From Bacteroidales bacterium (lineage in GTDB: Bacteria; Bacteroidota; Bacteroidia; Bacteroidales; Tenuifilaceae): a DNA stretch of 64,000 bases. Each line of letters starts with the position of its first letter. The first letter of the stretch is position 1. The notes below the pieces were generated by a model. It saw only the letters and a program-made list of their open reading frames with translations, had not been told where the DNA came from and did no database searches. Positions 13,255 to 44,541 of the stretch are shown here, one piece after another. The DNA is taken from NCBI GenBank assembly GCA_016931855.1, contig JAFGDZ010000068.1:62001-126000 (forward strand), given 5' to 3'. The position numbers were made by a program, and so were the translations under genes.

Positions 13255-14133
13255 TTAGTTGCGCCTATCGGCTCCCCACATAAGTTTACCGCGAAGTGTC
13301 TTATAGTAGGATGTTCCATTTAAAACAACTACACCCACTTTGAATGGGGCGATGGCAATTTCAATAGATACTGGGGCGGGAATTGTATATGAATGGGAAT
13401 CTAGCGAAACCGTAACCGACTCATCGCGCCCCGAGGCCTCTAACCTCAACACGGAATTATCTGGGATTAGCAATGGCCTAACCGTTAAATGATGAGGAGC
13501 TATTGGTGATATAAGTAATGCGGAGGTGTTTGGGCTTACTATTGGCCCTCCAACGCTTAACGAGTAGGCTGTTGAGCCCGTTGGGGTTGAAACAATTAGC
13601 CCATCGGCCCAATAAGTACAAAGAAACTCATTGTTGATATACGCATTAACGGTTATCATTGATGAGCCATTCTTTTGGATAGAGAAATCGTTTAACCCAA
13701 AATGAAAAGGATTAAACGGGTTGTTATCCATTGTAACCGAGAGCATCGACCGTGCTTCAACCCGGTACTGATTGGTGAACAGCTGCTCAATGGCTTCGCC
13801 AATATTGCCTGATGCTATGTGCGCCAGAAACCCTAGCCGGCCAAAGTTTATTCCCACAACGGGAATGCACGACTCCTCTACATACGCAACCGACTCCAAG
13901 AATGTACCATCGCCACCCAGGCTCAGCATAATATCGGCGTGCATTTTAACCTGAGCGGGCGAATCAAACTCGCTGCACACAGGTAAATCAAAGTGCAACC
14001 TCTCCGAAAGGAACTGTTTAAACGGAGCATACAGAATAATTCCCGCATCGAAACGCGCCAACGATGAGAACAGCTCCTCTAGTTCGGGAGTTGTTTCCTC
14101 GGCCAACGACCTACCGTAAATTGCAATAATCAT
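13255..14133 (-). CDS. nadK: NAD kinase
   Basis: 292 residues, the usual length. The diagnostic GGDGTFLESV is at about 73-82, followed by GINFGRLGFLA and the second domain with DGLIVSTPTGSTAYSLSVGGP, where NAD binds. It phosphorylates NAD to NADP in the cytoplasm. It lies 14 bases downstream of a TamA/BamA-like barrel gene, a neighbourhood seen in other Bacteroidota. A gap of about 218 bases, without a recognised terminator, separates it from the next gene of the cluster. Confidence 0.95.
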   Translation of the reverse strand: MIIAIYGRSLAEETTPELEELFSSLARFDAGIILYAPFKQFLSERLHFDLPVCSEFDSPAQVKMHADIMLSLGGDGTFLESVAYVEESCIPVVGINFGRLGFLAHIASGNIGEAIEQLFTNQYRVEARSMLSVTMDNNPFNPFHFGLNDFSIQKNGSSMITVNAYINNEFLCTYWADGLIVSTPTGSTAYSLSVGGPIVSPNTSALLISPIAPHHLTVRPLLIPDNSVLRLEASGRDESVTVSLDSHSYTIPAPVSIEIAIAPFKVGVVVLNGTSYYKTLRGKLMWGADRRN

Positions 14134-36694: not shown

Positions 36695-37051
36695 ATGGAA
36701 AGAATTGGCTACGCAAGTAACGAGGAAAAAACATGGGCAATGCTTTGCCACCTTAGCGCCTTAGCGGGTTACATTATTCCCCTTGGCAATTTTATTGGCC
36801 CGTTGGTTATTTGGCTTATAAAAAAGGACGAGTACGCCGAAGTGAACAGACAGGGCAAAGAGGCGCTTAACTTTCAAATATCCATGCTAATATACTTTGC
36901 AATAGCAGGAATACTAACATTGGTTCTAATTGGATTCCTAGCGCTAATTGCACTTGCCGTTTTTAACTTTGTAATGATAATTATAGCCTCGGTAAAGTCA
37001 AATAATGGGGAGCCTTTCTCCTACCCGTTAGCATTGAAACTTATTAGCTAG
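36695..37051 (+). CDS. DUF4870 membrane protein
   Basis: 118 residues. EEKTWAMLCHLSALAGYIIPLGNFIGPLVIWLIKKDEYAEV is the family pattern, followed by VNRQGKEALNFQISMLIYFAIAG and a third hydrophobic helix. About four membrane helices are likely. The family is Tic20-like and its role is unknown. It is 56 bases downstream of ettA and ends at a strong terminator. Confidence 0.88.
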   Translation: MERIGYASNEEKTWAMLCHLSALAGYIIPLGNFIGPLVIWLIKKDEYAEVNRQGKEALNFQISMLIYFAIAGILTLVLIGFLALIALAVFNFVMIIIASVKSNNGEPFSYPLALKLIS

Positions 37052-37069: not shown

Positions 37070-37104
37070 ACAAAAGGCGCTTAACTGCGCCTTTTGTTTT
37101 TTTT
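37070..37104 (+). terminator. intrinsic terminator after the DUF4870 gene
   Basis: An 11-base perfect stem (ACAAAAGGCGC / GCGCCTTTTGT) with a 6-base loop, then eight T (37097-37104). The opposite strand offers only a weak A/T run, so it mainly serves the plus strand; it lies between convergent genes. Confidence 0.9.
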
Positions 37105-37125: not shown

Positions 37126-37857
37126 CTACTGCTTAAGTGCCGCTTTTGTAAATATGTACTCGGGAATTTTCTGGTTAAACTTAATTGAGGTCATTTTGTA
37201 CTCCGTGCCATCGCCCTGCTTTAGCATATCCTTAAACACTATGGATATTGGAAACCATCGTCCATCAATCTGCTTAACATCGCTCATGGTGGTGCGTTTA
37301 AGCAGTTGCCCACTCTTGGCAAACAGGTCCTCTCTTAGTGGCACAAAGTGCTCCGTATCCACCCAAATTTTACGGGAATGGTAAGCCACATCGGAAACCT
37401 TGGCAGCAAGCTCAAGCACAAAGGTTTTGCGCCCATCAACATCCTCGGTTCCCGCTAGCGTAGCGGTGTACACCTCCGTTAACTTCCTGTCGTCCATCAT
37501 ATCCTCATAGGACAAATCGGAACCCATAACCGATTGCCGCAGCATGTGCCCCGAGAGCTGTATGGTTCTATCGGTAGATGGGGAGTATATCCAAAGCTGG
37601 TTATCCAGCTTAAGCATCTTTGTACCCTGCTCCCTAGCTGGAGTTAGGTACTCCGTAAACGACTGCTTAGTGCCTACCGAGTATGTGCGCGAGGTTATTG
37701 TGCGGCTGTTCCGCTTGCCGTGAATTGTCATTGAGGCCTCAACAATACGGTTATCGGAAGCCATATTCTCATCAACCTTACTAAGAATATCCTCGGCATT
37801 TTGCGCAGCTGCCAATAGCGTTGTAAGGCTAAGTATCATGGTTAATAGTACTCTCAT
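37126..37857 (-). CDS. LolA-like periplasmic lipoprotein-sorting protein
   Basis: About 243 residues from the ATG at 37857, giving a signal peptide (MRVLLTMILSLTTLLAAAQ); an upstream start at 37893 is less likely. The mature part fits the LolA-like family (COG2834): ADNRIVEASMTIHGK-type strands, KMLKLDNQLWIYSPSTDRTIQLSGHMLRQSVMGSDLSYEDMM, RKIWVDTEHFVPLREDLFAKSG and FPISIVFKDMLKQGDGTEY. The fold is a half-barrel that carries acyl chains. It is the last gene of the TetR-barrel-ATPase-permease-permease unit, 80 bases after permease 2. Confidence 0.86.
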   Translation of the reverse strand: MRVLLTMILSLTTLLAAAQNAEDILSKVDENMASDNRIVEASMTIHGKRNSRTITSRTYSVGTKQSFTEYLTPAREQGTKMLKLDNQLWIYSPSTDRTIQLSGHMLRQSVMGSDLSYEDMMDDRKLTEVYTATLAGTEDVDGRKTFVLELAAKVSDVAYHSRKIWVDTEHFVPLREDLFAKSGQLLKRTTMSDVKQIDGRWFPISIVFKDMLKQGDGTEYKMTSIKFNQKIPEYIFTKAALKQ

Positions 37858-37937
37858 TGTAGTTTTATTTATGGCGATTAAAATCAATATCACTCTAAAA
37901 ATGCATTTTTATGTTGATGATTTTAAGAGGCAACGCG

Positions 37938-39212
37938 TTACGCCTCTAGCTCCTTAAACAGTTTTGCCGTTTGGCGCCGATATATCCCCACTCCTGCAAG
38001 CATTGAGCCAACAACGGTAGAGACCAGTCCCGGAATGAGCCCTAAGTAGTAGTCAGCGGGTGTTATGCGAGCTTTAATAACGGTGGGCATCATCATGGCA
38101 GCGCCCTCCATCATCCCCGAAATATCGATACCATAAACCTGAAGCAGAAGCGCAAAGAAAAGCCCAATTGCCGTTCCAATGGCCGTACCAATAACACCTA
38201 TAACCACCGATTCATAAATAAGGGTACGGTAAACATGCCCCTTCTCCTCGCCCATGGCAAGGCGTACACCAAACTCTCCGTAACGGCGCAAGCTGCCAAG
38301 CAAACCTGCATTCCAAAGCACTAAAGCCATGGCTAGAACAAATATTGATGATATTATGCCAGTCCATGTATTTAGCAAGCTAACATACGACCCCATGTTC
38401 CCCTGCTGGCTTAAGCTCTTCATTACTGGAGCATACTCGCTACTGCTATCGGCATGCAAGGCGTTAAACCGTTGTGCAATGGCAATGGCATCATCATCGG
38501 AATAAAATCCGCCCTCCAAAAAACCAAGCACCTCGCCAGCAGCATTCTGCATATCAAGAGCATATCGGGCATCCTCTATATCAACAATTAGCGCACCCCT
38601 ATCAAGCGCCTCGGCACCAAAAGCAATGGTTCCCACAATGGTAAAGTTGTACATGCTCATGCTGCCATTCATGGTGGAGCCAATAAGAGTAACCACATCG
38701 CCAGGGAGCACCCCAAGCTTCTCGGCAAACAGGTTGCTAATTAGCGCCTCGCCAGCATTTTGAATTAACCTACCGCGAACCAACGACTTTGGAATATTTA
38801 AGCGCTCAACCTCGGAACTTGCAGGGGAAAGAAAATCGATACCCATTCCCATTGCAGGCCCCTGCGCACGGGTTTCGCCAGTGCTATCGGGGGCATCAAC
38901 CAAACCACCAAACTGAATTCGGGTAACCCAAGCCACAGTGGGGTATTCCCGTTGCAAACTAGAGAGCAGCGAATCGGAATCAAGAAGCGCCAAATCATTT
39001 GGTGTTTGGCTCATATTATCGGCATACCCCTTGGTCATTACCTTTAGATGCCCATGGCTAAACCTTGCGTTTAGCTCAATGGTATCGCCCATAAAACCGT
39101 TTATGTACGCGTGAATAAAAACAGTAAGCATAACCCCAATGGCCACAACAATAATGGGCATCTGGCTGCGACTTTTATCGCGGAGCAATCCCTTTACTAG
39201 AAATTTTATCAT
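37938..39212 (-). CDS. FtsX/LolE-type ABC transporter permease 2
   Basis: 424 residues. One N-terminal helix (about 15-35, SRSQMPIIVVAIGVMLTVFIHA), a large periplasmic domain (about 45-270) and three C-terminal helices with the FtsX pattern (ISSIFVLAMALVLWNAGLLGSLRRYGEFGVRLAMGE, VIGVIGTAIGTAIGLFFALLLQ). The topology is that of LolC/LolE and MacB rather than a solute importer. Its ATG overlaps the stop of permease 1 by 4 bases, so the two are probably made in equal amounts as a heterodimer. Confidence 0.9.
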   Translation of the reverse strand: MIKFLVKGLLRDKSRSQMPIIVVAIGVMLTVFIHAYINGFMGDTIELNARFSHGHLKVMTKGYADNMSQTPNDLALLDSDSLLSSLQREYPTVAWVTRIQFGGLVDAPDSTGETRAQGPAMGMGIDFLSPASSEVERLNIPKSLVRGRLIQNAGEALISNLFAEKLGVLPGDVVTLIGSTMNGSMSMYNFTIVGTIAFGAEALDRGALIVDIEDARYALDMQNAAGEVLGFLEGGFYSDDDAIAIAQRFNALHADSSSEYAPVMKSLSQQGNMGSYVSLLNTWTGIISSIFVLAMALVLWNAGLLGSLRRYGEFGVRLAMGEEKGHVYRTLIYESVVIGVIGTAIGTAIGLFFALLLQVYGIDISGMMEGAAMMMPTVIKARITPADYYLGLIPGLVSTVVGSMLAGVGIYRRQTAKLFKELEA

Positions 39213-40384
39213 TGTATTTTCCCCCTAAGCGCTTCGGTTGGATTCATTTTAGCAATTTTCCGTGCAGGCCAGTAGCTCACAACAGTTGTAACCAGCACAA
39301 CAATAAGCACTGTTGATAGCACCAGCCCAATGCTGTAAACAGGATAAAGCGTTTGTGCCATGGCCATGCCGTAATCGCTAACGTCCATAGGCATAGTCCA
39401 ACCCGCTTTGGCTTGCCAAATAAGGAATGGCATACCGTAAACCGCTGCCACCAACGCTGCCAAGATGGAGTGCATGGCTCCCTCAACGGTGAAAAGTCCT
39501 ACCACCTGGCGCCGGGTGTACCCCAATGCGATGTAGGTGCCAATCTCCTTCTGTCGGCGGAATATGGATAGCACCTGAGTATCGAAAATAGCCAGCATGG
39601 CCAGCAGCAGTAGTATCATGTAAAATACGCTTTGCCCAACGGTTTTGGTTTTAATAAGATCATCAACCGATTTGGTTAGCTCCCCTTTCGATTTAAGAGT
39701 CCAACCTTCAACCTGTGGGCGCTCCTTCTCGGCATCGGCAAAGGTGAGCAGAGATGCCTGATTGGGCAGCATTAGCATGGATTGCAGCTTATCCAGCGCA
39801 ATGTATATTTTACCCGCCTCAACAGCCGGAACGTTGCACGAGAATACATCAACAATAACCACATCGGCAGCATCAAACATTCCCTGAGCATCGCGCCAAC
39901 GGATGGTAACATAATCGCCAACACTAAGCTTTAGGTTGCGCGCCACCATGTTTCCAATAACCGCAGGAATAGCATCGGTTAAGGAGTCCAACCTATGCGT
40001 GGGTAGCATAAAAATGCGCTGCGAGGGGCGGATTCCCCTAATGGAAATGGGCTGCATGCGCCCCTGCGGATAAATGGTTGCCTGCGCAATAAGCATGGGT
40101 TCAATAGCGCCACATTCCACATCGGGAAGCAGCTCCTGCGGAATTGGGGCATGGCTATCGGCAAAGGTAAAGGGGTCGAAAGGGTCGTAGGTTTGGTGCC
40201 AGTACTGTCCGCCGCCAATTTCCCAGTTGGTCATATCGGTTTTTGCCTGATAGTCCCAGCCAACCATAACGCCCTTCATCCAAATAATAACCACAAAGGA
40301 GAACGATAGCACAACAACGTTTAGCCACGTTCGTAAACCTGCACCAATAAGATTTCGGTATGCCAGTTTTATTGCCAGTTTCAT
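39209..40384 (-). CDS. FtsX/LolC-type ABC transporter permease 1
   Basis: 391 residues with the same layout as its neighbour: an N-terminal helix (about 17-37, WLNVVVLSFSFVVIIWMKGVM), a periplasmic domain (about 45-265) and three helices (FYMILLLLAMLAIFDTQVLSIFRRQKEIGTYIALGYTRRQVVGLF, SIGLVLSTVLIVVLVTTVVSYWPARKIAKMNPTEALRG). The NPTEALR ending is typical of MacB/LolC permeases. It lies 12 bases after the ATPase gene. Confidence 0.9.
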   Translation of the reverse strand: MKLAIKLAYRNLIGAGLRTWLNVVVLSFSFVVIIWMKGVMVGWDYQAKTDMTNWEIGGGQYWHQTYDPFDPFTFADSHAPIPQELLPDVECGAIEPMLIAQATIYPQGRMQPISIRGIRPSQRIFMLPTHRLDSLTDAIPAVIGNMVARNLKLSVGDYVTIRWRDAQGMFDAADVVIVDVFSCNVPAVEAGKIYIALDKLQSMLMLPNQASLLTFADAEKERPQVEGWTLKSKGELTKSVDDLIKTKTVGQSVFYMILLLLAMLAIFDTQVLSIFRRQKEIGTYIALGYTRRQVVGLFTVEGAMHSILAALVAAVYGMPFLIWQAKAGWTMPMDVSDYGMAMAQTLYPVYSIGLVLSTVLIVVLVTTVVSYWPARKIAKMNPTEALRGKIQ

Positions 40385-40396
40385 GATGCAACAGTT

Positions 40397-41089
40397 TTAG
40401 CTATGTTCAACAACCTCGTCCTTATCTATCCTACCATCGAGCAGGAAAATCTTACGGCGCAGGTAGCCTATAACCTTCTCGTCGTGAGTAGCAAACACAA
40501 AAGTGGTGTTCAAATCGCGGTTAAGCGCCTCCATTGTTTTAAGAATATTGTGCGAGTTTGCCGCATCCAGATTGGCCGTTGGCTCATCGGCAAGCACAAG
40601 CGACGGGCGCTTTACCATTGCCCTAGCAATGGCTACGCGTTGGCACTCGCCTCCCGAGAGCTGTGGCGGCTTAGACTTAGCCTTATCGGTTAGCCCAACC
40701 CACGCCAGAGCTTCCATCACCATCATTTTACGCTCGGCAGCAGGTAGTTTTAACAGTAACAGAGGGAACTCCACATTCTCGTAAACGGTATGCACTTGTA
40801 ACAAGTTGTAACTTTGAAAAATAAAGCCAAGGCTTTCCTTTCGCAGCATTGCCGACTGCTTTGCGCTTAGTGCGCCAATAGAGTTCCCTAAAACAATGGC
40901 CTCCCCATCGGACGGCACATCAAGCGAGCCCAATATATTTAGCAGCGTTGTTTTACCAGAACCACTAGGGCCAATTAGCCCAACAAACTCACCCTTGCCA
41001 ATGGTGATATTAATATTTTTTAGCGCTGTAAACTCCCCCTTACCCATGGGAAAGCGCTTGGTGAGATTCTTAACGTCGATTAGGTTCAT
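40397..41089 (-). CDS. LolD/MacB-type ABC transporter ATP-binding protein
   Basis: 230 residues. Walker A GPSGSGKTTLLNIL (about 40-53), Q-loop FIFQSYNLLQVHTVYENVEFPLL, signature LSGGECQRVAIARAMVKRP, Walker B LVLADEPTANLD, and switch His in FVFATHDE. The LLQVHTVYENVEFPLL stretch is characteristic of the LolD/MacB/FtsE branch. It powers the two permeases encoded directly downstream. The signature has Cys instead of the more usual Gln (LSGGECQRV), which is tolerated in this branch. Confidence 0.93.
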   Translation of the reverse strand: MNLIDVKNLTKRFPMGKGEFTALKNINITIGKGEFVGLIGPSGSGKTTLLNILGSLDVPSDGEAIVLGNSIGALSAKQSAMLRKESLGFIFQSYNLLQVHTVYENVEFPLLLLKLPAAERKMMVMEALAWVGLTDKAKSKPPQLSGGECQRVAIARAMVKRPSLVLADEPTANLDAANSHNILKTMEALNRDLNTTFVFATHDEKVIGYLRRKIFLLDGRIDKDEVVEHS

Positions 41090-41126
41090 AGCACATAAGT
41101 TTCATTTTATTTTCATTAGCGCAGGC

Positions 41127-42251
41127 CTAATGGTTAAAAACTACCATAAGCTGCACCCCTTTTCCTCCAAACAAGCTGTAAGATTGATTTTGATTGATGA
41201 TATCGGCACTATCTGGATTCCAATAGGCCATTAGGTGAAACGAGAAACGGTTATACTGGCGCTGCCAGTTAAAAAAGGAGAAAAGGTCGCCCGTATCTAC
41301 ATTGTAATAGGCCATAACACCAGCATTATCGAACAGTGTTACTGGATAGCTAAGCGAGAGCAAGGCGAAGCTTGCTGTGTTGTAAAAATCGATGGAGCCC
41401 TTGTCGAACGATGCAAACAGCAGTTCGGTTGCTGCGTACAATCCACTTCCTATGCCAAAAGTGTAATCGGCACCAACGTTTACAAGGGTCTGGTTGGTAA
41501 GGTAATCCAAGTTAGCGCTGGAGTGTGTCCACGATGCCTCAACCCAAAAACCTATGGCCCAGTTAAACTTAGCATCTAACCCCCAGCGGCTCTCAGAGGC
41601 ATCTTTGAAATTTTGAAAAGGGAAACCAAACTTACTCACTTCCACCAATCGGTTGTGAAAGGAGACCGCCATTTCGCCACTTGGCAACGGGTACTGCACC
41701 CTGCCTCCAAATTCGGGCTGGCTATTGCTGCTTGGCATTAGCTCCCACCCCTTTAGCTTATCGTCGCCGTAAAGAGCCCAGAACCACACATTAGCATTAT
41801 TAAGAAAGTAGTACCGCCCCATAATACCCCAAACACCATCAGTTAGCTTAAGCGGGTCGCGGGTATCCATTTGGTCGAACCACATTAGCGGGCGAATAAT
41901 AGTTGCCGAACCAAAGTTTATTTTTTGTAGGCCCAACCTTAGCTCGAACTGCTGCGCCGATACGCGAGCCCAAGCCCTATAGGGTTTCACCCTTCCTTCC
42001 AAATCCATTTCGGTTTGCCATGAGGTGAAAGCGTTGGCCGAAAGCTCCAAATCAAACATGCTACCACTAGGGTATCGGCGCTCGTAGTTTAGCTGAGGAA
42101 TATACCTACCACCCAGCATTACACTTTCAAAGGATTCGTTATAAACCGCCCAAACCGATGCCTGTCCCTTAAAGAGCAGGGTATCTGCAGGCTCATTAGA
42201 AAACACAGCCAGAGACAGAAATAAAGCAAGGGCAAATAGCGCTGATCTCAT
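41127..42251 (-). CDS. outer-membrane beta-barrel protein, porin-like
   Basis: About 374 residues from the ATG at 42251, which opens a signal peptide (MRSALFALALFLSLAVFS) and lies 4 bases beyond the TetR stop; an alternative ATG at 42263 would overlap that gene. The mature protein has the alternating strands of a porin (RRYPSGSMFDLELSANAFTSW, FELRLGLQKINFGSATIIRP, AMFEAS-like strands) and ends GVQLMVVFNH. The segment LRLGLQKINFGSA.I.RP.MWFD recalls DUF1302-type or alginate-type barrels, but I cannot name the family with confidence. Its position between TetR and ATPase genes suggests it is the outer-membrane part of the export system. Confidence 0.75.
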   Translation of the reverse strand: MRSALFALALFLSLAVFSNEPADTLLFKGQASVWAVYNESFESVMLGGRYIPQLNYERRYPSGSMFDLELSANAFTSWQTEMDLEGRVKPYRAWARVSAQQFELRLGLQKINFGSATIIRPLMWFDQMDTRDPLKLTDGVWGIMGRYYFLNNANVWFWALYGDDKLKGWELMPSSNSQPEFGGRVQYPLPSGEMAVSFHNRLVEVSKFGFPFQNFKDASESRWGLDAKFNWAIGFWVEASWTHSSANLDYLTNQTLVNVGADYTFGIGSGLYAATELLFASFDKGSIDFYNTASFALLSLSYPVTLFDNAGVMAYYNVDTGDLFSFFNWQRQYNRFSFHLMAYWNPDSADIINQNQSYSLFGGKGVQLMVVFNH

Positions 42252-42255
42252 AGGG

Positions 42256-42834
42256 CTAATCATGGTTAACAATTCCGTAAGTTATTAAATTGGTAAACTC
42301 AAGCACCAAATCCTGAGGCTTATCGTAAAGGGCAACCACCTTACTATCGGCCACTAGCTCTGCAGCCTTTTGTGCCAGAACCAGCAGCAGCTCCGGCTTA
42401 AAATCGCTCCTAAACCACCCCTTTTGCTGACCTTCGCGAAAAACGGTTATCACATCAGTCCAAGCCACCCGAGTTTTCTCCTCGATATAGGTTGATAGCC
42501 CCAGCTCCGGATTTGCATAGAAATCGGCTAGGAACTCGCGGCTAATATCGTTTGTACCCTCCAGCTTCATCTGTATCATGCCCCGCATTTTTTCCGATAC
42601 CGATGCATCGGAGCCCATAAGCAGCTTAAACTGCTCCACTCCATCATCAACAACCATATCAAAAACAGCCTTTGCCAGCTCCAACTTATTGGGATAAAAC
42701 TTATAAAAGGTCATTTTGCTAACCTTAGCCGTAGCGCAAACCTCTTCTATGGTGACGCGCTTAAAGCCGTACCTCCAGAATAGCTCCTTGGCTGTACTAA
42801 CAATATCCTTATGTTTTTTGCTACTGAACTCCAT
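42256..42834 (-). CDS. TetR/AcrR-family transcriptional regulator
   Basis: 192 residues. The N-terminal helix-turn-helix is clear at about 10-55 (IVSTAKELFWRYGFKRVTIEEVCATAKVSKMTFYKFYPNKLEL). The helical ligand-binding domain follows with no recognisable specificity. It is the first gene of the minus-strand unit and probably represses it. A TATATTTG -7 element at 42866-42859 overlaps one arm of an inverted repeat (ATATACG / CGTATAT), a candidate operator. Confidence 0.92.
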   Translation of the reverse strand: MEFSSKKHKDIVSTAKELFWRYGFKRVTIEEVCATAKVSKMTFYKFYPNKLELAKAVFDMVVDDGVEQFKLLMGSDASVSEKMRGMIQMKLEGTNDISREFLADFYANPELGLSTYIEEKTRVAWTDVITVFREGQQKGWFRSDFKPELLLVLAQKAAELVADSKVVALYDKPQDLVLEFTNLITYGIVNHD

Positions 42835-42858
42835 ACTCTAAAAAGATTACTTTCAATG

Positions 42859-42901
42859 CAAATATATACGTTTTAAATCTATTTGTATTTTTTTCGTATA
42901 T
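42859..42901 (-). promoter_or_regulatory. candidate promoter and operator of the TetR-ABC unit
   Basis: The minus strand carries TATATTTG at 42866-42859, a full -7 match, 25 bases from the tetR start. It overlaps the arm ATATACG (42864-42870) of an inverted repeat whose second arm CGTATAT is at 42895-42901, 24 bases apart. No TTTG is found about 20 bases upstream. Confidence 0.38.
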
Positions 42902-43041
42902 TTATTTAGATAAAGCAAATAACACTTTAACATTTGTCTAAAATCAGCACAACTCAATCGCACTGCTATACAACACAACCAAAGCCATATTACTAGCCGA
43001 TAGAACAACATTTTACACCCAAGCCCTAGCCAAAATATTTC

Positions 43042-43049: not shown

Positions 43050-43158
43050 CAGGGCGATGAAAAAATGCAGAGGAGATGGATACCGCAATTGCACTATGCA
43101 CGCTGGCTACTCCCTTGCCTAACATCATTTGCAGCAACACAATAACGGCTTTAATAAT

Positions 43159-44541
43159 ATGGCAGTACAAAAACCAAGCATTCCAAAAGGAACAAGAGAT
43201 TTCTCGCCCACAGAAATGTCGAGGCGCAACTATATTTTCGACACCATCAAATCGGTGTTTAAACTTTACGGATATCAACCCATTGAAACACCATCAATGG
43301 AGAACCTATCAACCCTACTGGGCAAGTATGGCGAGGAGGGCGATAAGCTACTTTTCAAAATCCTTAACTCTGGCGATTTCCTAAAAGGGATTGATAGCCA
43401 AGAGCTAACTGGCGAGGTTAATACCAATGCTCTTTCGGTAAAGATGTGCGAAAAGGGATTACGCTACGACCTTACCGTTCCGTTTGCACGCTTTGTGGTT
43501 CAGTACCAAAACGAGATAACCTTCCCATTCAAACGATTCCAGATGCAGCCCGTTTGGCGCGCCGACAGGCCACAAAAGGGTCGCTACCGCGAGTTTTACC
43601 AATGCGATGTTGATGTTATTGGCAGCAATTCCCTTCTAAATGAGGTTGAGCTAATACAGATTATTAACGATGTGTTCCAAAAGCTAAGCGTTGGTGCCAT
43701 TATCAAACTAAACAACCGCAAAATACTTAGCGGAATGGCTGAAATGATTGGTCACGCCGATAAGCTAATTGACATTACTGTTGCCATTGATAAGATTGAT
43801 AAGATTGGCATTGATGCGGTAAACAAGGAGCTTGAGGAGAAGGGAATTCCGCGCGAAGGCATTGAGAAGCTGCAACCCGTTATAACTCTTAGCGGAACCA
43901 ACGAGCAAAAGCTAAGCACGCTGAAAGGCGTTTTAGCCCAATCGGAAGTTGGCATGAAGGGTATTGAGGAGGTTGAAGCCATACTTTCGTACCTAAGCGG
44001 ACTTGGTGCTATGCACGTTGATATTGAACTAGACCTATCGCTAGCCCGTGGGCTTAACTACTACACCGGAGCAATATTTGAGGTTAAGGCTAAGGATGTG
44101 GCCATTGGCTCCATTTGTGGAGGCGGCCGCTACGATGACCTTACCGGTATTTTTGGGCTAAAGAATGTGAGCGGAGTTGGCGTATCGTTTGGTGCCGACC
44201 GCATTTACGACGTTATGCTACAGCTAAACCTCTTCCCAGAGAGCTTGCTCACCAGCTCGCAGGTGATGTTTGCCAACTTTGGCGAGGCAGAGGCTGCCTT
44301 TTGCCTACCACTAATTAAAACCCTACGCGAGCAAGGCATAAGCGCCGAGCTCTACCCCGATAACACAAAAATGAAAAAGCAATTCGACTATGCTAACAAG
44401 AAGAACATACGACTTGTGGCAGTGGTTGGTGAATCAGAAATGCAGGGCAACAAGGTATCCGTGAAGAATATGGTTACAGGGGAACAGGTAGATGTACCTA
44501 CCGCCCAACTTGTGAATCATATTTTAGACGCTGGGGTGTAG
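43159..44541 (+). CDS. hisS: histidine--tRNA ligase
   Basis: About 460 residues from the ATG at 43159 ([20 protein letters not shown]); the ORF could be opened ten codons earlier at 43129, but the conserved N-terminus starts here. Class II motifs: motif 1 around [13 protein letters not shown], motif 2 [23 protein letters not shown], histidine loop [15 protein letters not shown], and motif 3 [10 protein letters not shown] then [13 protein letters not shown]. The C-terminal anticodon-binding domain includes [33 protein letters not shown]. Confidence 0.96.

Follow-up and report, generated by a model that had tools for sequence, protein, structure and literature searches.

A TetR-linked six-gene unit conserved in Bacteroidota, predicted to encode a Lol-like trans-envelope exporter with an outer-membrane barrel

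A stretch of 64,000 nucleotides (hereafter, the window) from a Bacteroidales bacterium of the family Tenuifilaceae (assembly GCA_016931855.1, contig JAFGDZ010000068.1, positions 62,001 to 126,000) carries six consecutive minus-strand genes for a TetR-family regulator, an outer-membrane beta-barrel, an ABC ATPase, two FtsX-type permeases and a periplasmic carrier with a LolA-type fold. We found that these six genes are a conserved unit, linked in relatives beyond chance, and that they are distinct from the housekeeping Lol genes of the same genome. We consider it probable that they make up one transcription unit whose products export a hydrophobic molecule, probably one with acyl chains, across the envelope under the unit's own control. 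In this proposal, TetR would occupy a 34-bp dyad that overlies the tetR promoter until it binds the cargo or a related compound, and would then let go. Together, the ATPase and both permeases would form a Lol-like type VII ABC complex, whose periplasmic domains, moved by ATP, would lift the molecule from the inner membrane. The LolA-fold carrier would take the acyl part into its groove, cross the periplasm and hand the molecule over to the 18-strand barrel, and the barrel, replacing LolB as the outer-membrane acceptor, would discharge the cargo into the outer membrane or through it. The unit represents one of three classes of module built around carriers of the family PF17131, and we refer to the class of the window as class C.

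Do these genes belong together? An earlier, sequence-only reading of the window had proposed a single export unit and had named a survey of gene neighbourhoods across Bacteroidota as the way to learn whether the barrel and carrier genes are conserved with the ABC genes. Our survey found that they are. A scan of GTDB species genomes with the barrel profile A1 gave 515 pattern matches, 58 of which had no confirmed relative and were dropped; the best 80 of the 457 confirmed relatives were analysed. Presence counts take only loci with enough contig, and the search profiles were built from members of the same loci. On this basis, the barrel was accompanied by the ATPase in 60 of 60 loci, by permease 1 in 50 of 50, by permease 2 in 47 of 47 and by the carrier in 45 of 45. 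Forty loci had room for the full set: all six genes were present in 31, the exact order of the window in 28, and TetR was missing in nine. In a second set of 39 loci, drawn from the order and the phylum, the ATPase adjoined the barrel in 34 of the 36 loci with room, and TetR was present in 26 of 36. At the two loci where the ATPase was missed (L017 and L020), longer stretches (L223 and L224) revealed it in a rearranged order. The barrel, ATPase, both permeases and carrier were all present in each of six longer regions of the second set; the order of this core was like that of the window in three of them and permuted in L223-L225 (with a second permease 1 in L224), and TetR was seen in L223-L225, not in L226-L228. 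Parabacteroides sp. PFB2-10 (L074) likewise has a permuted gene order. A constant gene content under a permuted order is what a functional unit predicts.

The loci come from Bacteroidota, including Prolixibacteraceae, Marinilabiliaceae, Saprospiraceae, Rhodocytophagaceae and Chitinophagaceae, with the exception of two metagenome-assembled genomes (L056 and L102), in which the class C genes may reflect mis-binning or transfer. These two are labelled Deltaproteobacteria and Candidatus Fermentibacteria, and their Zod_Metabat isolate series is shared with several metagenome-assembled genomes of Bacteroidales. The distribution is patchy: the unit was found in 32 of 198 genomes of the order and in 12 of 296 in a phylum sample, one of them marginal, the window's own genome being counted in both. 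Permease 1 is doubled within the unit at the Carboxylicivirga and Saccharicrinis loci L098, L103 and L106, and in Parabacteroides sp. PFB2-10 the class C ABC genes are preceded, at a distance of about 50 bases, by the end of a second LolD-like ATPase gene (L074, 4252-4926).

Within the window, all six open reading frames (ORFs) were re-found in the order tetR, barrel, ATPase, permease 1, permease 2, carrier, and the spacings of the earlier reading hold: 4, 37 and 12 bases, a 4-base overlap and 80 bases, with ATG starts at 42251 and 37857. Its assignments of the parts agree with our results (Table 1). Every member except the barrel is named by a Pfam scan. In the ATPase, the Walker A (GPSGSGKTT), LSGGE, Walker B (LADEP) and H-loop His motifs are legible, and the enzyme is of the LolD/MacB type; in a profile search of solved structures, permease 1 lay nearest to LolF, then YtrF and LolC, and permease 2 nearest to LolF, then MacB. 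Both carrier and barrel begin with what looks like a plain signal peptide, and a lipobox was seen in neither.

The carrier has a LolA-type fold in its AlphaFold2 model (predicted local distance difference test, pLDDT, 89). Its Foldseek matches are the LolA-superfamily structure 3buu, Porphyromonas gingivalis LolA3 (9tp6), 3bk5 and the DUF1329 protein 4z48, with template modelling (TM) scores of 0.71-0.79, that of 4z48 being 0.79; LolA structures such as 4mxt and 8cgm come well behind these. The best sequence matches among solved structures are again 3buu (1.4e-18) and 9tp6 (2e-17). The carrier alignment A2 holds 50 of the 56 carriers found plus that of the window, and the barrel alignment A3 holds the barrels of 49 of the 80 loci plus that of the window.

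For the barrel, neither Pfam nor NCBIfam offers a family name, and its sequence had no match among solved structures at E up to 1. Across 50 class C barrels, Pfam reported Porin_4 in four (best 2.9e-4), and PF06980 (DUF1302) was not reported for any of these 50 at E 1. The AlphaFold2 model (mean pLDDT 85) has 18 strands by DSSP and is of the Occ/OprD/AlgE type by fold, in keeping with the porin-like barrel that had been read from the sequence. Its best VIA match is OccK2/OpdF (Z 23.4, root-mean-square deviation, rmsd, 2.9, 296 residues aligned), and the alginate exporter AlgE follows 1.3 below the top (Z 22.1, rmsd 3.5, 299 aligned). Such a shared fold tells no function. Omp85 is absent from the 50 VIA matches shown for the barrel, which is no proof of its absence. 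The last residue of an outer-membrane barrel is usually Phe, as it is in the two sister barrel families (23 of 24 and 30 of 31), and the class C barrel ends in His (VFNH-type; window 41127-41138) in 45 of the 50 rows of A3, some rows being cut short. A terminal His is unusual for a BAM substrate.

Might the unit simply be the housekeeping Lol system, as would be the case if the genome held no other LolCDE? Against the LolD equivalog TIGR02211 (cut-off 307.75 bits), the ATPase of the unit scored 229.5-229.9 bits, only the third best in its own genome after two LolD-like ATPases at C57 and C3 (255.6 and 245.7 bits), and no ATPase of the genome reached the cut-off. Against the LolC/E equivalog TIGR02212 (cut-off 362.45 bits), the permeases of the unit scored 52.2-53.2 and 25.8-30.6 bits, and better LolC/E-like permeases, also below the cut-off, lie on C77 and C26 (218.6 and 169.4 bits). 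Because even the best Lol-like genes of the genome miss the equivalog cut-offs, these cut-offs are strict for this phylum. The carrier likewise fails the LolA tests (LolA1_Flavo NF053572, 23.2 against 100 bits; PF03548 unreported at E 0.1), and a separate PF03548 LolA gene is found on C21; the carrier is the only PF17131 match of the genome at E 0.001. Therefore, with separate and better LolC/E-, LolD- and LolA-like genes elsewhere, identity with the housekeeping LolCDE is rejected and the proposal of a distinct unit stands; some of the better-scoring ATPases and permeases presumably serve lipoproteins. As had been noted from the sequence, there is no LolB-type lipoprotein acceptor among the six products; a genome-wide search for LolB was not made.

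We then placed the unit among the other carriers of its family. PF17131 matches were found in 143 of the 198 genomes of the order, in 123 of them above the cut-off. A census of 60 regions was taken from the top-scoring part of these matches; contigs known to hold a class C barrel were excluded (L170 entered), and the class proportions are thus no survey. By our own tally, an inner-membrane engine stands beside the carrier in all 60 regions, MMPL in 25 and Lol-type ABC in 35. Class A has the MMPL engine (25 regions, with weak scores in L178 and L199). Class B has an ABC engine in the order carrier-permease-permease-ATPase-barrel, with minor variants (34 regions, including L190, in which only a permease fragment precedes the contig end). 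Class C is represented by L170 alone. A barrel was recognised in 56 of the 60 regions, and the other four (L170, L171, L174 and L190) end at contig edges; in 40, a TetR gene shares the strand and lies no more than 7.5 kb away. The sequence-only reading is borne out in large part; what it missed is that the unit is one of three module classes, in which the engine may also be MMPL. Measured against class A, the unit has an ABC engine instead of an MMPL/RND engine and shares the LolA-fold carrier (PF17131).

The barrels differ between the classes. Those of class A are DUF1302 proteins (PF06980 in the three tested, 5.8e-12 to 1.8e-8), and no fitting Pfam family was found for the class B barrels of L159-L161. 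In profile-profile comparisons, with hhalign E-values that for a single pair are not library-calibrated, classes A and B are firmly linked (99.4%, E 2e-21) and class C is more loosely related to B (88%, E 3e-6) and to A (61%, E 8e-5); the controls, reversed profiles and OMPLA-like barrels, gave no more than 14% and 7%, respectively. A quick tree of 111 carriers separates every class from the rest by a single branch (class C with support 100, B with 99 and A with 86), with two changes of class label, the minimum possible. Judging from this split, carrier, engine and barrel type appear to have been inherited together. In four MMPL-type regions (L148, L155, L165 and L166), we also observed two extra ORFs with matches to the ABC ATPase profile (in L148 and L155 they are 576-594 aa long), adjoining MMPL, the carrier and a DUF1302-type barrel; these regions resemble the product lists of iron-regulated operons of P. 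gingivalis and Prevotella.

Control by TetR was part of the sequence-only reading, and we can add a feature unseen there, a conserved dyad at the tetR promoter. It was first suggested by an eye comparison of seven tetR upstream sequences and became visible only through a comparison of half-sites at a spacing of 22. Among 63 class C upstreams (the window and 62 of the 80 loci), TTACGA-N22-TCGTAA occurs within one mismatch in 19 and within two in 32; at other spacings from 14 to 30, the corresponding numbers are 0-2 and 0-10 upstreams, and in 20 dinucleotide shuffles the averages were 0.05 and 0.75. When the seven prompting upstreams were held out, 15 of 56 remained within one mismatch and 26 of 56 within two. 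The form WTACGA-N22-WCGTAW fits 29 of 63 upstreams, including that of the window, and 24 of the 56 hold-outs. The right end of the dyad in the window abuts a TATATTTG element (42859-42866), which resembles the Bacteroidota -7 box; a site within three mismatches is present in 51 upstreams, and in 28 of these the right half runs in register into TAnnTTT, which likewise resembles the -7 element. No exact site was found in the 13 loci with room but without TetR, nor in three loci cut before TetR, and in L074 it lies directly upstream of the ATPase gene, the first of the set there. A second L074 site lies inside an ORF (13263-14117) that reads as thymidylate synthase-like, and the window's genome has only one other exact site, inside an ORF. 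Upstream of the TetR genes of the sister classes, where start codons were set crudely, no site within two mismatches was found (0 of 20 in class A, 0 of 24 in class B). Generic palindromes gave mixed results: against simple shuffles, perfect 7-bp arms upstream of tetR numbered 48 (19.4 shuffled, maximum 35), and 8-bp arms with one mismatch were found in 47 of 63 loci (40.9 shuffled, maximum 48). The inverted repeats called by a repeat finder (42855-42889 and 42905-42942) were rejected as the operator; they differ from the conserved dyad. The conserved dyad supports TetR as a local autoregulator at a predicted operator, where it would bind and repress, and its ligand is likely the cargo.

What speaks against an inducible lipid exporter? 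TetR was present in 59 of the 72 class C loci with room among the best 80 and absent in the other 13. The dyad is not found within two mismatches in 31 of 63 upstreams, and the site of the window itself, an exact fit to the W form, has three mismatches to the counting consensus. The kinship of the class C barrels with DUF1302 barrels is weak on the profile comparisons. No flanking family recurs as a substrate clue, the commonest being present in 5 of 58 loci. Finally, an OMPLA-related protein occurs in 8 of the 60 census regions, all of them in the sister class A and the L158 copy a fragment, and none was found in the 80 class C loci; Pfam PLA1 was reported for three of the four OMPLA-like proteins searched, with 17-24 bits against a cut-off of 27 bits (a fifth protein scanned alongside is a ZIP transporter). 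All these points weigh against the proposal. The seven longer OMPLA-like proteins all carry HHSNG, which agrees with the HxSNG signature of OMPLA, and by analogy their genes in the MMPL sisters give a hint of lipid cargo.

Three other functions were considered. A detoxifying efflux pump, with foreign amphiphiles or drugs as both cargo and TetR ligand, fares best among them, and we regard it as unlikely. TetR autoregulation is typical of efflux operons, and the patchy distribution described above would suit such a role. The engine, however, is Lol-like and works with what is predicted to be a soluble LolA-fold shuttle, and neither an adaptor protein nor a TolC-type channel is among the six products. 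A precedent comes from Castellaniella defragrans, where, according to excerpts of the report, the AmeABCD system guards against monoterpenes, its deletion lowering monoterpene tolerance and raising Nile Red uptake in cells treated with carbonyl cyanide m-chlorophenyl hydrazone (PMC6394551). These findings on an analogous system also speak for our preferred reading. The bile-efflux operon BT_2792-2795 was also tried as a homologue and rejected; its paper, in the part available, describes the operon of a bile-salt efflux pump and gives no link to our set.

Slightly less likely still is a specialised lipoprotein-sorting system, a second Lol route with the barrel as acceptor or surface-display gate. 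It would draw on the nearness of the ATPase and permeases to LolD, LolF and LolC and on the LolA-type fold of the carrier, and the authors who described the Borrelia cluster BBJ23-29 consider lipoproteins for a similar set (PMC13078400, in excerpt). Yet no lipoprotein gene was seen in the unit, and the ATPase, permeases and carrier lie far below the Lol equivalog cut-offs, strict as these are for the phylum. Excerpts of the published work on LolA3 point the same way: the P. gingivalis protein, related to our carrier in sequence (2e-17), binds A22 at 66 uM, does not bind polymyxin and binds LolB weakly (PMC13103446), and deletion of lolA3 in Flavobacterium johnsoniae, a protein placed in the family of our carrier by the naming of the papers only, leaves gliding and amylase secretion unaffected (PMC13103446, PMC11885536). 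Inducible control of a single operon would, in addition, be ill-suited to bulk sorting. The sequence-only reading had offered a lipid, a lipoprotein or a hydrophobic compound as cargo; of these, a lipid or hydrophobic compound fits best and a lipoprotein is the weakest candidate, the joint function being proposed from the parts.

The third function is uptake, in which the barrel would admit a hydrophobic compound, the carrier would run inward and the ABC complex would take the compound up. The best VIA matches of the barrel, at Z about 23, are Occ/OprD proteins, which are uptake channels, but the exporter AlgE aligns nearly as well, and the characterised type VII ABC systems, LolCDE and MacB, extract or export. 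Even though the MMPL sister operon of P. gingivalis is described, in excerpts of the reports, as induced by iron or hemin shortage (PMC10434189, PMC10470040), which suits acquisition, we hold uptake to be the least likely of the three.

If the export of a hydrophobic molecule is the correct reading, the Lol-like ABC complex, LolA-type shuttle and barrel would together span both membranes as a complete, inducible pathway for lipids, and its engine in the inner membrane would be exchangeable while the logic of shuttle and barrel is kept. PF17131 proteins carry the annotation 'outer membrane lipoprotein-sorting protein', and our census suggests that these carriers belong to dedicated export modules with their own engine and barrel and usually their own regulator. 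It is possible, and we offer it tentatively, that the PF17131 (LolA3-like) carriers of Bacteroidota do not act as lipoprotein chaperones but as the shuttle of a general, usually TetR-controlled module for lipid export across the envelope. With the same caution, such a module might consist of shuttle, barrel and exchangeable engine (MMPL or Lol-type ABC), might bring free acyl lipids to the outer membrane or beyond it and might dispense with LolB, and the class of the window might differ in using an unnamed barrel family with the unusual terminal His. The module partners, the promoter site and the class-specific barrels are now named as testable items.

The surroundings of the unit are simple. 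Upstream lies a divergent gene (43129-44541), which reads as a histidyl-tRNA synthetase; the downstream neighbour (36695-37051) is convergent, and a hairpin separates its transcript from that of the unit. Therefore, the unit is self-contained. The hairpin may act as the terminator of the putative six-gene operon. Terminator-like sites in the region were not in excess (6 found and 7.0 expected in shuffles), and a scan for sigma-70-type promoters gave no excess either (8 found and 10.4 expected).

Table 1. Positions of the features of the unit in the window and of OMPLA-like genes in class A census regions
Feature	Position	Strand	Evidence or remark
TetR-family regulator, 192 aa, first gene of unit	42256..42834	-	PF00440 TetR_N 3.2e-11
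Outer-membrane beta-barrel, 374 aa, signal peptide	41127..42251	-	AlphaFold2 model; no family name
LolD/MacB-type ABC ATPase, 230 aa	40397..41089	-	PF00005 ABC_tran 1.6e-32
FtsX/LolC-type permease 1, 391 aa	39209..40384	-	PF02687 1.8e-15
FtsX/LolE-type permease 2, 424 aa	37938..39212	-	PF02687 4.7e-15, MacB_PCD 1.3e-8
Periplasmic LolA-fold carrier, 243 aa	37126..37857	-	PF17131 LolA_like 7.7e-60
Predicted TetR operator ATACGA-N22-ACGTAT	42866..42899	.	Conserved dyad, fixed spacing 22, upstream of tetR
Hairpin between convergent transcripts, possible terminator	37070..37097	.	Called on + strand only
OMPLA-like gene	L143 3124-4029		
OMPLA-like gene	L146 8896-9843		
OMPLA-like gene	L147 5050-5970		
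OMPLA-like gene	L150 8694-9641		
OMPLA-like gene	L157 10313-11215		
OMPLA-like gene	L163 4420-5484		
OMPLA-like gene	L167 7773-8693		

Searches aimed at this kind of gene set in an open-licence library, judged mostly by brief entries, gave no paper recognised as describing the six-gene class C unit. The unit is best understood beside systems that resemble it in part. With the Lol system it shares a type VII ABC engine of separate ATPase and two permeases and a periplasmic carrier of LolA-type fold; unlike that system, it has a barrel in place of LolB, a PF17131 carrier in place of PF03548 and its own TetR and dyad, and it misses the equivalog cut-offs. Permease 2 has the periplasmic core domain of MacB, as in MacAB-TolC, whereas the ATPase of the unit is separate, and a fused ATPase-permease, an HlyD-type adaptor and TolC are not among the six products.

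Three published systems, each known to us from excerpts of its reports, come closer in overall plan. AmeABCD, which consists of a DUF1302 barrel, a DUF1329 LolA-superfamily protein, AmeC and an HAE3 RND protein, likewise combines a barrel, a LolA-superfamily periplasmic protein and an engine in one set and is a proposed exporter of hydrophobic compounds; it differs in its RND instead of ABC engine, its DUF1302 barrel and the additional AmeC (PMC6394551). P. gingivalis PG1178-PG1181 are listed as TetR, MMPL, a lipoprotein-sorting protein and a hypothetical protein (PMC10434189, PMC10470040, PMC12119571), and PG1175-1181 rise 13- to 136-fold under iron shortage (PMC10434189). This set, which from its product names would belong to class A, resembles ours in that a single inducible unit contains both TetR and a LolA_like-type protein, and differs in its MMPL engine and in its induction by iron or hemin shortage. 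Borrelia BBJ23-29, a proposed export system for a non-polar ligand, unites a MacB/LolE-like ABC transporter, a LolA-like carrier and an outer-membrane barrel in one cluster, in contrast to our unit with an Omp85 barrel, a proposed homodimeric permease, TPR proteins and, in the description excerpted, no TetR (PMC13078400); its relation to our unit is one of likeness. By analogy, AmeABCD and the Borrelia cluster, as excerpted, would agree on a hydrophobic cargo. By the tests made here, the unit lies outside both the Lol system and the DUF1302/MMPL type, and it would operate in the manner of a Lol-type extractor, the barrel serving as acceptor.

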